This document shows, in pieces, positions 32,097 through 38,212 of a stretch of DNA of 64,000 nt. A model generated the notes under the pieces. That model saw only the letters and a list, made by a program, of their open reading frames with translations, searched no databases and was not told the origin of the DNA. This stretch comes from Solirhodobacter olei (GTDB taxonomy: Bacteria > Pseudomonadota > Alphaproteobacteria > Rhodobacterales > Rhodobacteraceae): assembly GCF_004010155.1 (NCBI RefSeq), contig NZ_RRYH01000028.1, positions 1 to 64,000 on the forward strand. Direction: 5' to 3'. A program made the translations under genes and the position numbers. Position 1 is the first letter of the stretch; every line of letters begins with the position of its first letter.

Positions 32097-32396
32097 TCAT
32101 CCGTTTGGAAACAGAATAGCCTCGACGTTCATGGTGCCGTTGAGAATGTGCAGGATTGTGACCCGATCGCTCGCGACGCGGGAGAAAATCAGATAACGCC
32201 CGTGCACCCGACGGCGAATGCCGTATCGCTCGTAGCGTGGAACGACCGGCCAGGCGTCGGGCATATCCGCGATGTCAGTGCAGGCGCGATAGAGCTCCCG
32301 GATGAAGCTGGCAGCCCGCGCGGGATTATCGCGGGCGATGTAGTCTCCGATTGCCTCCAGATCCGCCGCGGCCGCCGCCGTCAGTTCGACGATCAT
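32097..32396 (-). CDS. parE: ParE/RelE family toxin
   Basis: A 99-residue toxin of the ParE/RelE superfamily: AAADLEAIGDYIARDNPARA, then FIRELYRACTDIADMP and YGIRRRVHGRYLIFSRV followed by VTILHILNGTMN. This is the standard ParE fold; such toxins poison DNA gyrase. Its start overlaps the antitoxin stop by 4 bases. The palindrome upstream of parD supports an intact, autoregulated pair. Confidence 0.88.
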   Translation of the reverse strand: MIVELTAAAAADLEAIGDYIARDNPARAASFIRELYRACTDIADMPDAWPVVPRYERYGIRRRVHGRYLIFSRVASDRVTILHILNGTMNVEAILFPNG

Positions 32397-32650
32397 TCGG
32401 GGGCGCGACCCTGGGCCTGATACTTGGCCTCGAGCCGCCTGACGACATCGTCGAGGGGGGCCACGCGGCCGGCGTCGGCATCGGCGAGCCCACGCCCAAT
32501 CGCCTGGTCAAGCGCCTGAAGCCGCGCCTCGCGCTCTTGGATCAGACGGATCCCCTCCCGCAGGACTTCGCTCTTCGAATTGTACCGCCCGGTCTCGACA
32601 AGGGAGGAGACGAAGTGTTCGAGCTGCGCTCCAAGGTCTGCGCTGATCAT
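32393..32650 (-). CDS. parD: ParD family antitoxin
   Basis: An 85-residue type II antitoxin: MISADLGAQLEHFVSSLVET, then GRYNSKSEVLREGIRLIQER, the ribbon-helix-helix part with which it binds its own operator, then a helical tail that neutralises ParE. ATG 32650 has GGAGG 7 bases upstream; the frame from 32662 is less likely. The operator palindrome lies 34 bp upstream. Confidence 0.88.
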   Translation of the reverse strand: MISADLGAQLEHFVSSLVETGRYNSKSEVLREGIRLIQEREARLQALDQAIGRGLADADAGRVAPLDDVVRRLEAKYQAQGRAPE

Positions 32651-32683
32651 CCTGACCTCCACGTGCTTGGCCCCTCAATATGG

Positions 32684-32779: not shown

Positions 32780-32990
32780 TCAATTCCTGCGCGGCTTCGG
32801 CTGGTCTCTCGGTCGGCGGGCGTTGGCACGTAGGGTGTTACGCAAGTCCTTGTTTATCCGCTCCAGGTCGAACCACTCCGGATCGAAGTAACCGCCGCTC
32901 CAGCGGAGCGTTTCGGAATGTTCCTGGTCGTCCGGGTCGGCAAGGATGTTCAGAAAATAGGCATAGCCGGAGACGCCACCGACATCCTCT
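32780..32990 (-). pseudogene. C-terminal remnant of a plasmid pRiA4b ORF-3-like protein
   Basis: The minus strand reads PEDVGGVSGYAYFLNILADP, then DDQEHSETLRWSGGYFDPEW and FDLERINKDLR, ending at 32780. This is the conserved C-terminus of the pRiA4b ORF-3-like family, which begins its core with PPEDxGG. The homology stops exactly where the IS110 transposase homology on the other strand begins, near 32990. The upstream two-thirds of the gene is gone. Confidence 0.7.
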
Positions 32991-33610
32991 GGCTGTTGAT
33001 CGAGCAGGGGATCGCGGTCCGCAGCGGGCTCCGGGCGCTGAGAAACTCCTTCGAGACGATCCTCGAACAGCGGCGCGACGAGATCTCTCCTCGCACTCGG
33101 TCTATTCTGGTCGGGCTCTATGGTGACTGGCTCTGGCTCGATGACCGGATCGCGGCGGTATCGAAGGAGATCGAGAAGATCAGCCGCACCGAGGAGAACT
33201 GCGCGAACATCACGTCGATCCCGGGCATCGGGCCGATGATTTCGACGGCCATGGTCGCGGCGATCGGCCAAGGCGAGGCCTTCGACCGAGGCCGTGACTT
33301 CGCCGCCTGGGTCGGGCTGGTGCCCCGGCAGTTCAGCACGGGCGGTCGCACGATCCTGGGACGGATCACCAAGCGGGGAAGCCGATACCTGCGGATGCTG
33401 TTCGTTCAGGCCGCGAAGGTGATCATGATGCGTCCCCACCGCTGGCAAGCCTTCAGCTTAGGCGCGTGGCTCGAGCGGGCCGTCTCCCGCATGCCGAGGA
33501 ACAAGGCCGCGGTCGCCCTGGCCAACAAGCTGGCCCGCACCGCGTGGACCATCCTGCGCCACGGCACACGCTTCGACGCCCCAAGAGATGAGACCATGGA
33601 AGCGATCTGA
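32991..33610 (+). mobile_element. IS110 family (IS1111-like) transposase fragment
   Basis: About 205 residues that match the C-terminal part of an IS110 transposase (Transposase_20): RALRNSFETILEQRRDEISP, ITSIPGIGPMISTAMVAAIG, and WVGLVPRQFSTGGRTILGRI with RGSRYLRMLF, which contains the conserved serine. The N-terminal DEDD RuvC-like domain is missing, so the element is dead. The frame is open from 32918, but those first residues belong to the disrupted pRiA4b-like gene. Bases 33611-33760 may be the rest of the right end, where IS1111-type elements carry their non-coding RNA. Confidence 0.8.
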
Positions 33611-33841: not shown

Positions 33842-34228
33842 TTATTGCAGCGTCCAGGCGGTCTCGAGCGGTTTCCCGCCCTGATAAGCCTGCAGCGTGT
33901 TGGCGTTCACCTGCTGCACTTGGTAGCAGGCATGGTCAAAACCATCTTCTTCGCACCATGAGTTGCCCTGGACGTACCAACCCTCGGTGCTGAATGTGCC
34001 GGTGCCCTTATTGGTCACCTTTCCCATTTCCTGGCCGGGTCCGAAGCTCCGGGCGAACTTGGCACCGCCGGAGCTGTTGCCCATCACAATGTGGCCCGGC
34101 AGCATCGATAAGAGCTGCTGTTGGGTCAGGTAGGAGTTCGCGAGCCCAGGTGTCGCGAGGGATGCGACAGCGAGAGCAACGCCGATTGGAAGGGCGAATT
34201 TCGCTTTAAAGATTACCGGACGTTTCAT
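33842..34228 (-). CDS. Small secreted protein, paralogue A (DUF995-like)
   Basis: A 128-residue exported protein. The signal peptide runs to about residue 30 (FALPIGVALAVASLATPGLA), then the mature part begins NSYLTQQQLLSMLPGHIVMG. Later comes GWYVQGNSWCEEDGFDHACY, with two cysteines that may bond, and QVQQVNANTLQAYQGGKPLE. A close relative lies at 35889 and a more distant one at 36665. The pattern (Leu-Leu-x-Met-Leu-x-Gly, W-x-x-x-G-N-x-W/L-C, C-Y-x-V) is like small periplasmic DUF995-type proteins. ATG 34228 has GGGAGA upstream. Function unknown. Confidence 0.75.
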   Translation of the reverse strand: MKRPVIFKAKFALPIGVALAVASLATPGLANSYLTQQQLLSMLPGHIVMGNSSGGAKFARSFGPGQEMGKVTNKGTGTFSTEGWYVQGNSWCEEDGFDHACYQVQQVNANTLQAYQGGKPLETAWTLQ

Positions 34229-34585
34229 GTTTATCTCCCGTTGAAGGGCGTTTCCGAGACGAATGGGCATTTGCACGGCTCGCCCCCCAGAAATACCGGG
34301 CGGAGGCCGAACTTTAGCCGTGCCTGGAAGCGCATTTATCCAGATTGAAGGTCAGATATTTCCCGGAATCGGTATCCGGATAGCTCCGTGAACCGTTTCC
34401 GATATTCCAGCTTAGTCTCGGCTTCTTTGGCCAGGACCGATTTCAATGATGCGCCTGATTCGGGGAAATTTCATGATCCATTTTGGCTATTGGATTAAAT
34501 GGCTAAAGGAGAATAGGCCGCGCCTCCAGCTCGAAGCAACCTCGCCGGACTTGGATGGCGATACTGCTGGGTCCGACATCGAGAT
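34229..34585. other. Promoter region and end of the luxR gene side, no gene supported
   Basis: About 350 bp with visibly lower GC than the flanks. It must hold the promoter of the small secreted gene at 34228 and the end of the luxR transcript. An open frame from 34446 overlaps the luxR gene on the other strand and is not supported. Confidence 0.4.
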
Positions 34586-35695
34586 CTATAAGTCGACGAT
34601 ACCCGGCGGCGCTTCCTCCGTGGCACTCTTCACCGCGAGAACGAGATCGACTTGGCGATGGGTCTCGGTCTTCGACATGGCCGATTTGATCTGGTTGCGG
34701 ACTGTGTTGACACTGGTTGCCCGCTCATCCGCGATCTCTTGAGGTGTCTTGCCGTTTCCAAGCGCCATCACCACCGCATATTCACTTCCGCTCAACCCAA
34801 GGTCTTGGACGGATGGAATGTGATGTCTCGCTTCAGAGACGATGATGAGCTTGGAGCGCCGGTCCACGTTCAGCAATGTGCCGAACGGAGAAAACCCCAG
34901 CACGGAGGGGGTGAAGTCGACGCAGCGCATAATCCACTGGTGATTGCCTGCGCGGATGCGCGTTGCACGGTCGGGCTTTCCCTCGATATGACACCCGTCG
35001 CGCAACCGGACCTGGCCCGCGTTATTCTCGCAAAAGAGTAATCCTTGGGTCAAAATCAACCGGGCCGCCCGGTTTGCAAAGAGCAAACGGCGATCGTCGC
35101 TGACCGCGAAGACGGCAGCTCCGGAGTTGAACTCGTCATCCGTGAGCATCCGCTCGATGCGAAGTCCGTCCAGGCTTCGGCTGATTTCCAACGCTTGCTG
35201 AAGGGAGCCAATGAGTGGTGTAAGAAGACCTTCCCATGCCGGATCGAGATCATCACCCTGCTTGTCCGGAACATCCGCCCCAAGAAAGATGAGCCTCTCC
35301 GGATCGTTGAAGAGAACGACCCCTCCGCCCCGGTGCGACAGTTTCTGTGGTCGCATCCAGTCGTTGTAAAACTCGCTCGCGAAAAGCTCATCGAGTTGAA
35401 AAACCTGTCTCGAAAAGACAAACCTTCCGGGTGTCAGGGCCTTAATCCAGTTGATCCTCGGATTTATCTGAGCATAGTATTCCTGATAGGATGCCATTCT
35501 CTCTGGATCGTAGAGCGACGTAACAGCTTGAATGCCCTTATTCGTTCGGGTGTCATGTCCGATAATGTGCGCATGGGCGCCGCCGGATTCGGACGCAAAG
35601 GCTTCGGCGACATCCAACCACAGCTCCGGATTGAGAGCGGCGGCAAAGATAAGAGCCGACAGTCGGCTATATGTGCCCAGACACAATGACCCCAT
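34586..35695 (-). CDS. LuxR-type (helix-turn-helix) transcriptional regulator
   Basis: A 369-residue regulator. Residues 300-355 form a LuxR/GerE helix-turn-helix (LGLSGSEYAVVMALGNGKTP, then QEIADERATSVNTVRNQIKS). The N-terminal 300 residues are a sensor region with a PAS-like part near residues 190-260 (DDEFNSGAAVFAVSDDRRLL); it does not look like an autoinducer-binding LuxR domain. ATG 35695 has AGGGGG upstream. It lies between two paralogous secreted-protein genes on the same strand and may regulate them. A hairpin-forming repeat sits 59 bp upstream. Signal unknown. Confidence 0.8.
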   Translation of the reverse strand: MGSLCLGTYSRLSALIFAAALNPELWLDVAEAFASESGGAHAHIIGHDTRTNKGIQAVTSLYDPERMASYQEYYAQINPRINWIKALTPGRFVFSRQVFQLDELFASEFYNDWMRPQKLSHRGGGVVLFNDPERLIFLGADVPDKQGDDLDPAWEGLLTPLIGSLQQALEISRSLDGLRIERMLTDDEFNSGAAVFAVSDDRRLLFANRAARLILTQGLLFCENNAGQVRLRDGCHIEGKPDRATRIRAGNHQWIMRCVDFTPSVLGFSPFGTLLNVDRRSKLIIVSEARHHIPSVQDLGLSGSEYAVVMALGNGKTPQEIADERATSVNTVRNQIKSAMSKTETHRQVDLVLAVKSATEEAPPGIVDL

Positions 35696-35753
35696 GGCAG
35701 ATGCCCCCTGCCAACTCGCTCATCGTCTCACGAGAAGGGAAATCGGTCAACCT

Positions 35754-35788
35754 CCGGGGTAGCACCGCCGATTGCGGTACCACCCCGG
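35754..35788. promoter_or_regulatory. Nested inverted repeat upstream of the luxR gene
   Basis: Outer arms CCGGGGT (35754-35760) and ACCCCGG (35782-35788), inner arms ACCGC (35764-35768) and GCGGT (35774-35778), all perfectly complementary and symmetric. It lies 59 bp before the luxR start and 100 bp after the secreted gene's stop. It may be a LuxR-type operator or a terminator; no T-run follows. Confidence 0.5.
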
Positions 35789-35888
35789 CGGTTCGCCGCC
35801 CTTCGCTGGTGGGGACAGGGAAGGCGACGGGTCGGTGAATGACGAAGACGTTGCGCACGAGGAGCGCCATGTGCCCGGGGCCGCCGGG

Positions 35889-36260
35889 TTATTTCAGCGA
35901 CCAGGTGTGCTTCAACGCCTTCCCGTTGTAATAGAGTTGCAGGGTGCTGGCGTCGACCTGCTGCACCTTGTAGCAGACGTGGCCCCAGCCGCCGTTCTCG
36001 CACCACAAATTGCCCTGAACATACCAGGCTTCCTCGAAGGGATGGTTGTGATAGGTTCCGGCAGCCTTGCCCATGCGTCCGCCAGGGCCGTAGTTTGTCA
36101 CGAACTTGGTTCCATCCTCGGCGAGACCGCTGACGGTATGGCCGGGCAACATCGACAAGAGCTGGGCCTGACTGAGATAGCTTGCGGCGAAGCCGGGCGT
36201 CGCCAGGTTGAGTCCAATGACCAGAACAGACAATGAATGAGCGGCTTTGGGAATTGACAT
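35889..36260 (-). CDS. Small secreted protein, paralogue B (DUF995-like)
   Basis: A 123-residue exported protein: signal peptide with LSVLVIGLNLATPGFA, mature start ASYLSQAQLLSMLPGHTVSG, and AWYVQGNLWCENGGWGHVCY, then KVQQVDASTLQLYYNGKALK. It matches paralogue A over nearly its whole mature length, including both cysteines, and even the 5' leaders share CTCCCGTT (minus-strand reading AACGGGAG), so the two arose by gene duplication. ATG 36260 has GGGAGG upstream. Function unknown; an exported binding or defence protein is possible. Confidence 0.75.
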   Translation of the reverse strand: MSIPKAAHSLSVLVIGLNLATPGFAASYLSQAQLLSMLPGHTVSGLAEDGTKFVTNYGPGGRMGKAAGTYHNHPFEEAWYVQGNLWCENGGWGHVCYKVQQVDASTLQLYYNGKALKHTWSLK

Positions 36261-36664
36261 GTTTGACCTCCCGTTTAACGCGATCCCAATAAAACAGGGA
36301 GCAGAAAAGGGCATCTAATTTGGTCTTTTGCAGGCCCATATCGCAGCCGGATAACTCTGATGCACGCACCAACAACATCCATCGGGGAATACCAAAATAG
36401 CACCGACCAAAGAGGGAGTTAAATTTCTGTCTTGAACTGTCTTCGAATATTCTACCACCGACACCTTTCCGCGATGACCGACCGTGATAGGGCCATGTTT
36501 CACGATTATCACGGGCCTGCCTGAACGTCATGATCCATATGGACTATGTGAGCAAGAGCGGCCAGCGTGGGTCTTGCATCCGTGTGAGCATTCCAGATCA
36601 ATCATGCATGAATGGCTTGCGGCCAAGCCTGCTGCTCGAGCGGAATGAAAATATCGGTCGAGTC
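36261..36664. other. Intergenic region between paralogues B and C
   Basis: About 400 bp, visibly AT-richer than most of the window. It should hold the promoter of paralogue B. Open frames are short and unconvincing, and I see no clear operator or terminator. Confidence 0.4.
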
Positions 36665-37048
36665 CTACCAGGAATTCATCCCAAGATCCTTGCTGCCTTG
36701 GAACGCCTCGACGGATGTCGGCGAAAGCATGCACCAGGTTTCGCAGACCTGCTTATGCGCGCTGCGCCCACCTTCCCAGGTTCGGCAGAACTTGTTGTCG
36801 GCAACATGCCATTTACCCGAGATGCCATAGTTATGACCACCTATGGTTATGTAGCCCGAGGCCGTTCCGTTCCCGCGGATACTGAGACGGCCCAGGACCC
36901 CGGTATCCGGCTTCCCAAGGTGGAGGGTGACGCCATTGGAAGTCAGGCGCTTCAACTGTGCCGTCGTCATCTGTCGGCAGGGGGTTGCCGATGCTTCCAC
37001 CGCGAAAATCATCATTATCGATGCGGCAGCCGCTTTGAAAAGGACCAT
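36665..37048 (-). CDS. Small secreted protein, paralogue C (DUF995-like)
   Basis: A 127-residue exported protein with signal MVLFKAAAASIMMIFAVEA, mature start near SATPCRQMTTAQLKRLTSNG. It keeps the family skeleton: a helix with QLKRL near the start, a Gly-rich middle, GKWHVADNKFCRTWEGG, VCETW and a C-terminal LSPTSVEAFQGSKD. It is more distant from A and B than they are from each other. ATG 37048 has AGAGGAAA upstream. Function unknown. Confidence 0.7.
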   Translation of the reverse strand: MVLFKAAAASIMMIFAVEASATPCRQMTTAQLKRLTSNGVTLHLGKPDTGVLGRLSIRGNGTASGYITIGGHNYGISGKWHVADNKFCRTWEGGRSAHKQVCETWCMLSPTSVEAFQGSKDLGMNSW

Positions 37049-37600
37049 GATGGTTTCCTCTTGTCAGAGGGTAACTCGTCGATCTCGCCAGCCGAACTCA
37101 ATGCGTTCCCATGCAGGCTCAATGTCGTCCTCTGAAGCATACGTCATCTCGTTGATCGTGGCATGACCAATTTGGGCTATGCGACAGACTATCGATCTAC
37201 ATCGAGGCCATCGAAATTAATGATCTGAATCTTCAACACGGAAAGATCGATCGAACTCAAAATTTCAATATCCAACGGTCCGAGGCGTTGTTATGACCCG
37301 CTTAAACGGCAGCGGCGATTTCGCCCTTTTTGTGCCTTGCTATGGGGGTAGCGCGGTTAGCCTTCGCGCCAAGCGTGGTGGGCAGCTCTTGGAGCTCTGC
37401 AATGCAGCGTCAAATCCTCGGTTGTAGGTCCGCAACAGGTCGGGGAGCGGCCACGTCTTCTATGCGTTGGCCGGGTCATAAGCCGTGCTGAGGTTCTTCT
37501 GGGCGACGTGATTTGCTATAATCCCAAACGAGTCTCGCACAGGCGGCGGGCGCCGGATCGTGACAGCCATCACGTTGGGCCTCGATATCCGGGAGGGGGC
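37049..37600. other. About 550 bp without a supported gene
   Basis: The left 250 bp is AT-rich for this genome and holds the promoter of paralogue C. Near 37330-37430 the minus strand shows a short protein-like stretch (IAELQELPTTLGAKANRATP) with a stop but no start; it could be the end of a lost gene. No structure RNA or terminator was recognised. Confidence 0.4.
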
Positions 37601-38212
37601 ATGCAAGACCTGAATTTCATGTATTTCTTCGGAAGTGGTTATGCCTACTTGTCGGTGATGCGGATCGATGCCTTGGCAAAGGCATCAGGGGTGACCGTCC
37701 ATTGGCGACCATTCAGCGTCCGCACCCTTATGATCGAGCAGAAAAACCCTCTCCGGAGCCAGAAGGAGAAACTGCGCTACATCTGGCGCGATATTGAGCG
37801 CCGGGCGGCTCAGCACGGAGTGCCATTCGTTGCGCCGCCGGTGTGGCCAACCGATCCTGAGGAACTTGCGAACCGGGTTGGTGTGGTCGCGATGATTGAA
37901 GGCTGGTGCTCCGAATACACCCGTGCAAGCTTCTCCTCCTGGTATCTCGAAGGCAAGCCTCTGGGAGATCCCGATGCGCTCACGCATATCCTTGTTGGCC
38001 TTGATAAGGATCCCGAGATGGTCTTGCGCAAGGCCGGAAGTGACGAGGTTTGCGAGCGCTATGCGTCGGAAACAGATTTTGTCCGTGGCCTCGGTGGATT
38101 TGGCTCGCCGACTTTCGTCGTCGGCGAAGAAGTGTTCTGGGGCGACGACCGCCTCGAAGAGGCAATTGCTTGGGCAGCCGGGCAGCATCCAGCTCAGCTG
38201 GTGAAGGAGTGA
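37601..38212 (+). CDS. DsbA-family 2-hydroxychromene-2-carboxylate isomerase-like protein
   Basis: A 203-residue member of the thioredoxin-fold HCCA isomerase family, which uses glutathione in the breakdown of polycyclic aromatic compounds. Family marks: FMYFFGSGYAYLSVMRIDAL at the N-terminus (strand then the Ser/Gly-Tyr motif), VHWRPFSVRTLMIEQ, and the cis-Pro region GGFGSPTFVVGEEVFWGDDR followed by LEEAI. ATG 37601 has GGGAGGG upstream. It stands alone, upstream of the nitrate cluster and with no clear link to it. The natural substrate is unknown. Confidence 0.83.
   Translation: MQDLNFMYFFGSGYAYLSVMRIDALAKASGVTVHWRPFSVRTLMIEQKNPLRSQKEKLRYIWRDIERRAAQHGVPFVAPPVWPTDPEELANRVGVVAMIEGWCSEYTRASFSSWYLEGKPLGDPDALTHILVGLDKDPEMVLRKAGSDEVCERYASETDFVRGLGGFGSPTFVVGEEVFWGDDRLEEAIAWAAGQHPAQLVKE

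Follow-up and report, generated by a model that had tools for sequence, protein, structure and literature searches.

Results

Organization of the locus

The locus lies in the window, the whole 64-kb stretch of Solirhodobacter olei DNA that was analysed, and comprises four genes on the minus strand, transcribed in the order C, B, R, A, whose open reading frames were all found where the earlier note had placed them. Genes C (36665-37048), B (35889-36260) and A (33842-34228) encode small, predicted secreted proteins and R (34586-35695) a LuxR-type regulator of 369 amino acids. The frames of B and A are open to 36314 and 34276, respectively, with the likely starts at the inner ATG codons at 36260 and 34228.

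The GC content between 34 and 38 kb is 55-58%, compared with about 65% in the rest of the window; the genes of the block have 56-58% GC and a GC3 of 65-74%, and GC3 is 73-89% in the other flanking genes tested. The left border of this low-GC block is formed by the C-terminal Transposase_20 half of an IS110-family transposase (32918-33610, plus strand). At the opposite end, the gene at 37508-38212, coding for a DsbA-fold protein similar to 2-hydroxychromene-2-carboxylate isomerase, has a GC3 of only 44%, and the low-GC region therefore probably reaches to about 38.2 kb. Neither A/B nor C was found in six genomes of the same genus. The low GC and the IS110 remnant, from which the earlier note had proposed a foreign origin, were thus confirmed, and the C-B-R-A block was probably acquired; the searches, PHROGs among them, gave no support for a phage origin. 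A ParDE toxin-antitoxin pair is located beside the remnant, at 32097-32662.

The secreted proteins A, B and C

A and B are duplicates, as had been proposed, with 48% identity (E=2e-43). The third supposed paralogue is a different case: A and C share 26% identity in a weak alignment along the whole length of C (E=1e-4), and the comparison of the A/B profile with the C profile is collinear and full-length (E=2.4e-4) with a probability of only 44%, so that C is graded as a probable remote relative by sequence and not as a clear paralogue. In all three proteins a signal peptide was recognized by eye (basic start, hydrophobic stretch, A-x-A-like end), which upholds the secreted character claimed earlier. 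The pair of conserved cysteines noted earlier is invariant in the A/B-family alignment of 11 sequences, from which a frameshifted homologue was left out, and it probably forms a disulfide. A and B carry the core that defines this family, W-x-V-x-G-x-x-W-C-E followed by a second C and a C-terminal W, with W54, V56, W61, C62, E63, C71 and W95 invariant.

At most about 5% of the genomes sampled from the family have relatives of A/B; those identified by name belong to Ruegeria, Yoonia, Tateyamaria, Fuscibacter and Pseudorhodobacter. A first contig scan with A and B alone as queries had given no matches. In Ruegeria and its relatives (L046-L048, L095, L097, L103) the homologues reside in the his locus, between hisF and hisA as these genes were assigned here by sequence, with DUF302- and DUF2147-like neighbours and with neither a LuxR gene nor a box (see below). 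The homologue left out of the alignment, that of Pseudorhodobacter wandonensis (L101 6938-7325), consists of two overlapping frames and looks frameshifted. A search of plasmids yielded a real relative for C only, a Rhizobium plasmid protein with 40% identity that stands there beside a Crp/Fnr regulator.

No named family in Pfam, NCBIfam, PADLOC or PHROGs covers A, B or C, which agrees with the view that the locus matches no described system. The anti-phage models of PADLOC gave only short, weak matches (E>=0.0018), and nothing typical of toxins or effectors was found in the window proteins. The earlier suggestion of DUF995 (PF06191) had to be abandoned: both groups are small and secreted, with W-x-V and paired cysteines, but neither A, B, C nor any of the 11 A/B-family members matches the Pfam model, and the A/B profile comparison is not significant (E=0.035, probability 1.5%).

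The AlphaFold2 model built on the 11-sequence alignment (pLDDT 95, pTM 0.85) consists of an N-terminal helix and an eight-stranded barrel. Its best Foldseek match in the PDB, a loose one, is Treponema TP0435 (TM 0.71, E 0.03), followed at non-significant E values by avidin-, FABP-, lipocalin-, NHBA- and Omp19-type barrels. These calycin-like proteins (the last from Brucella) share with the A/B model the small eight-stranded antiparallel barrel, but they have no sequence similarity to A/B, their Foldseek E values are never below 0.03, and they lack the extra N-terminal helix and the cysteine pair. These results suggest that A and B may be binding proteins rather than enzymes.

The regulator R

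Taken alone, R has a GerE match at residues 301-353 that stays below threshold (20.5 bits versus the Pfam cut-off of 23.5). Its helix-turn-helix aligns, with E values down to 2e-16, with relatives that exceed the cut-off (32.6 bits in G150, 28.8 bits in G348), and by its sequence R can be classed as a LuxR/GerE-type regulator; the LuxR-type gene reported between A and B is accordingly retained. Two other classes could be discarded. R is not a quorum-sensing LuxR of the AHL type, as a Pfam search down to E<=5 did not detect the autoinducer-binding domain PF03472, nor a NarL-type response regulator, as Response_reg was not matched either. A PAS-like stretch was noticed by eye near residues 190-210, and the fold predicted from the single sequence was unusable (pLDDT 35). 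The closest homologue of R outside the window, in genome G040 of another genus, is 33% identical.

Several other LuxR-type genes were encountered during this survey. The genome that carries R has a second LuxR helix-turn-helix in a 136-aa ORF (G000:C36:318000-318173; L125 4833-5243), whose recognition helix TVRNQIRS nearly equals that of R and which might possibly cross-talk on the boxes of A, B and C. Three regulators of the R kind stand in tandem in G061 (L120 6193-9669), and the R-like genes of G377 and G216 (L164 4298-4726, L195 6724-7194) adjoin genes with H-type lectin domains next to the ATP synthase operon.

A 20-bp box upstream of A, B and C

A repeat search revealed a 20-bp dyad, CATRRYCCAWWTGGRYYATG, upstream of each of the three secreted-protein genes, all on the minus strand. 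Read in gene direction, box A (34472-34491) is AATAGCCAAAATGGATCATG, 95 bp past the R stop codon and 243 bp ahead of A; box B (36529-36548) is CATAGTCCATATGGATCATG, 268 bp before B; and box C (37162-37181) is CATAGCCCAAATTGGTCATG, 113 bp before C. R itself has no box upstream. The three-way match scores 48, which was reached in none of 4273 rounds of dinucleotide shuffling of these upstream regions (mean 39.1, maximum 46). The upstream DNA of A and B is otherwise diverged, leaving the box as a conserved island, and elsewhere in the 4.78-Mb genome every match to the three-site pattern has at least two mismatches. Dyad operators are expected for dimeric LuxR-type proteins.

A loose -10-like hexamer, TGATAAT in the case of B, follows the boxes at about 17-21 bp, a spacing that in sequence terms is suggestive, and only suggestive, of activation from a site near -42. 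The distances of boxes A and B from the start codons imply long leaders, which, like the absence of a box before R, counts against the regulon proposed below. For these leaders an Rfam search found no family and one chance match below the cut-off.

Boxes and R-like regulators in other genomes

The locus of the closest R homologue was fetched by protein similarity and then scanned with the window boxes: the sole box without mismatch in the G040 genome, which equals the window boxes in strength, lies 226 bp past the stop codon of that homologue. In the reverse direction, when the 64-kb window was scanned with a matrix made from this single box, the three best sites were box C, box B and box A, in that order, and a matrix built on four R-linked boxes found in other genomes likewise places the three on top.

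In the family-wide survey the loci were chosen by R homology only and the scanning matrix came from the window sites only. Boxes of 20.6-26.3 bits were found beside R-like genes in G040, G367, G216 and G377, and one of 21.0 bits beside a LuxR-hydrolase gene in G438; the maxima in the shuffled loci were mostly 9-13 bits, the highest 19.1. When loci were chosen by the box only, this LuxR helix-turn-helix was present in 6 of 29, versus 0 of 29 with weaker boxes and 0 of 33 controls, a count in which three of the six are one orthologous locus and hence not independent, and whose profile included a spurious fragment of one member. Nearly all box-linked regulators have the recognition-helix motif T-x-[RK]NQ in common. 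Further observations count against a regulon: the close R homologues of G366, G266 and G247 have no box within 1.5 kb, and the boxes of G040, G367, G216 and G377 are flanked by convergent genes, so that none has an obvious target. In G348, G044, G258 and G037 it stands just upstream of the regulator gene.

The helix-turn-helix of R is related to that of the LuxR-alpha/beta hydrolase fusions of Rhodobacteraceae (GerE plus Abhydrolase_1, next to HIT or recN), beside whose genes the palindrome of the R locus, or a variant of it, is likewise present. R differs from them in having no hydrolase domain, and A/B-like genes were not found at their loci. In many genera of the family these fusion genes are mostly convergent with recN and have a near-perfect CATACCCCAWWTGGGGTATG close to the stop codon (at L009 497, L010 495, L011 2700, L017 2702, L021 2653 and L192 2988); the recN-adjacent regulators combine this variant palindrome with an RAQ recognition helix. 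A second group (L138, L152, L154, L158) has the CATRRYCCAWWTGGRYYATG box just upstream of the start, and in L138, L152 and L154 adjoins HIT-family genes.

Secreted proteins beside R-like genes

The reading of the earlier note depended on LuxR-type and secreted genes occurring together elsewhere, and such neighbours were found in G313, G353, G318 and G150. In G313 the gene after the R-like one, in the same orientation, is a true member of DUF995 (PF06191, E=4e-16), and a weak site resembling the box (13.0 bits) lies some 120 bp ahead of its likely start; DUF995 is rare among the relatives (1/61). In G353 an R-like gene, a box and a Cys-rich protein with a signal-like start succeed each other on one strand. 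G318 has two convergent LuxR genes, a Slam gene, and 98 bp before a TbpB-like lipoprotein a box of 18.1 bits, a score that does not surpass all shuffles. Additionally, boxes precede RTX repeat proteins in G037 and G102. G150 has a LuxR gene directly upstream of an A/B homologue, with a further small secreted protein in the row; this regulator and R share an overall identity of only about 22%, the adjacency could be due to chance, and no box was found there, which counts against the regulon.

Discussion

The box statistics, together with the association between R homologues and the box, lead us to consider it likely, as far as sequence can tell, that the block is a compact, probably acquired local regulon in which R would bind the boxes and drive the exported proteins A, B and C. 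The 20-bp operator, which the earlier note did not contain, gives more weight to its idea of a single unit and is the main reason why the four genes are treated here as one system. We infer that a signal would be bound by the N-terminal region of R, whose C-terminal helix-turn-helix, as a dimer, would recognize the 20-bp dyad before each gene. R would most likely act as an activator rather than as a repressor, on three separate transcription units. The products would be exported by Sec, and the small barrels A and B would most likely bind a ligand or a partner protein, either in the periplasm or extracellularly.

In such an arrangement R would resemble LuxR solos and other local LuxR-type regulons, with a C-terminal GerE-type helix-turn-helix, predicted binding to dyads of about 20 bp and a regulator beside its targets. 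It differs from them in an N-terminal region that matches neither the autoinducer-binding domain nor the response-regulator receiver, in its box and in its putative targets, small secreted proteins. No description of the operator or of a DUF995 function was found in the literature consulted, which was mostly outside subscription journals.

The best surviving alternative, although an unlikely one, is that the boxes are operators of another LuxR-type regulator of the same genome, R being a bystander or a co-regulator. The 136-aa ORF with nearly the same recognition helix would be a candidate, and near-identical boxes do occur at LuxR-hydrolase genes in other genomes; but the three strong boxes of this genome all flank R, close homologues of R have the box next to their own genes, and no box of at least 9 bits is present near the candidate. 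It is still less probable that the palindromes serve as transcription terminators or belong to a dispersed repeat. Several do stand just past stop codons between convergent genes, and the perfect copies can form a hairpin with a 4-nt loop. Nevertheless no T-run follows them where this was checked, the copies in the window would make only imperfect hairpins, no gene on the same strand lies upstream of box C, other copies lie just upstream of regulator genes, and a dispersed repeat would not be nearly unique genome-wide. Equally improbable, A, B and C would be unrelated passengers of an IS-borne island with a common location and no common function, a view to which the low GC, the IS110 remnant, the nearby ParDE pair and the his-locus homologues lend something, and with which the box common to all three upstream regions and the repeated occurrence of R-like regulators beside genes for secreted proteins do not agree.

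Beyond the local regulon of R, it is quite possible, though somewhat less likely than not, that a new class of sense-and-secrete units exists in Rhodobacteraceae, in which LuxR-type regulators that combine a novel kind of sensor region with a recognition helix of the RNQ type would use one operator, CATRRYCCAWWTGGRYYATG, in front of interchangeable small secreted barrel-type proteins (A/B, DUF995, TbpB-like and others). Tying proteins without a family to one particular group of regulators and to a defined operator sequence makes the conditions of their expression, and then their function, testable. Furthermore, the pairing of helix and box, RNQ with RRYCC and RAQ with ACCCC, would allow the specificity of many LuxR-type regulators to be read from their sequence.
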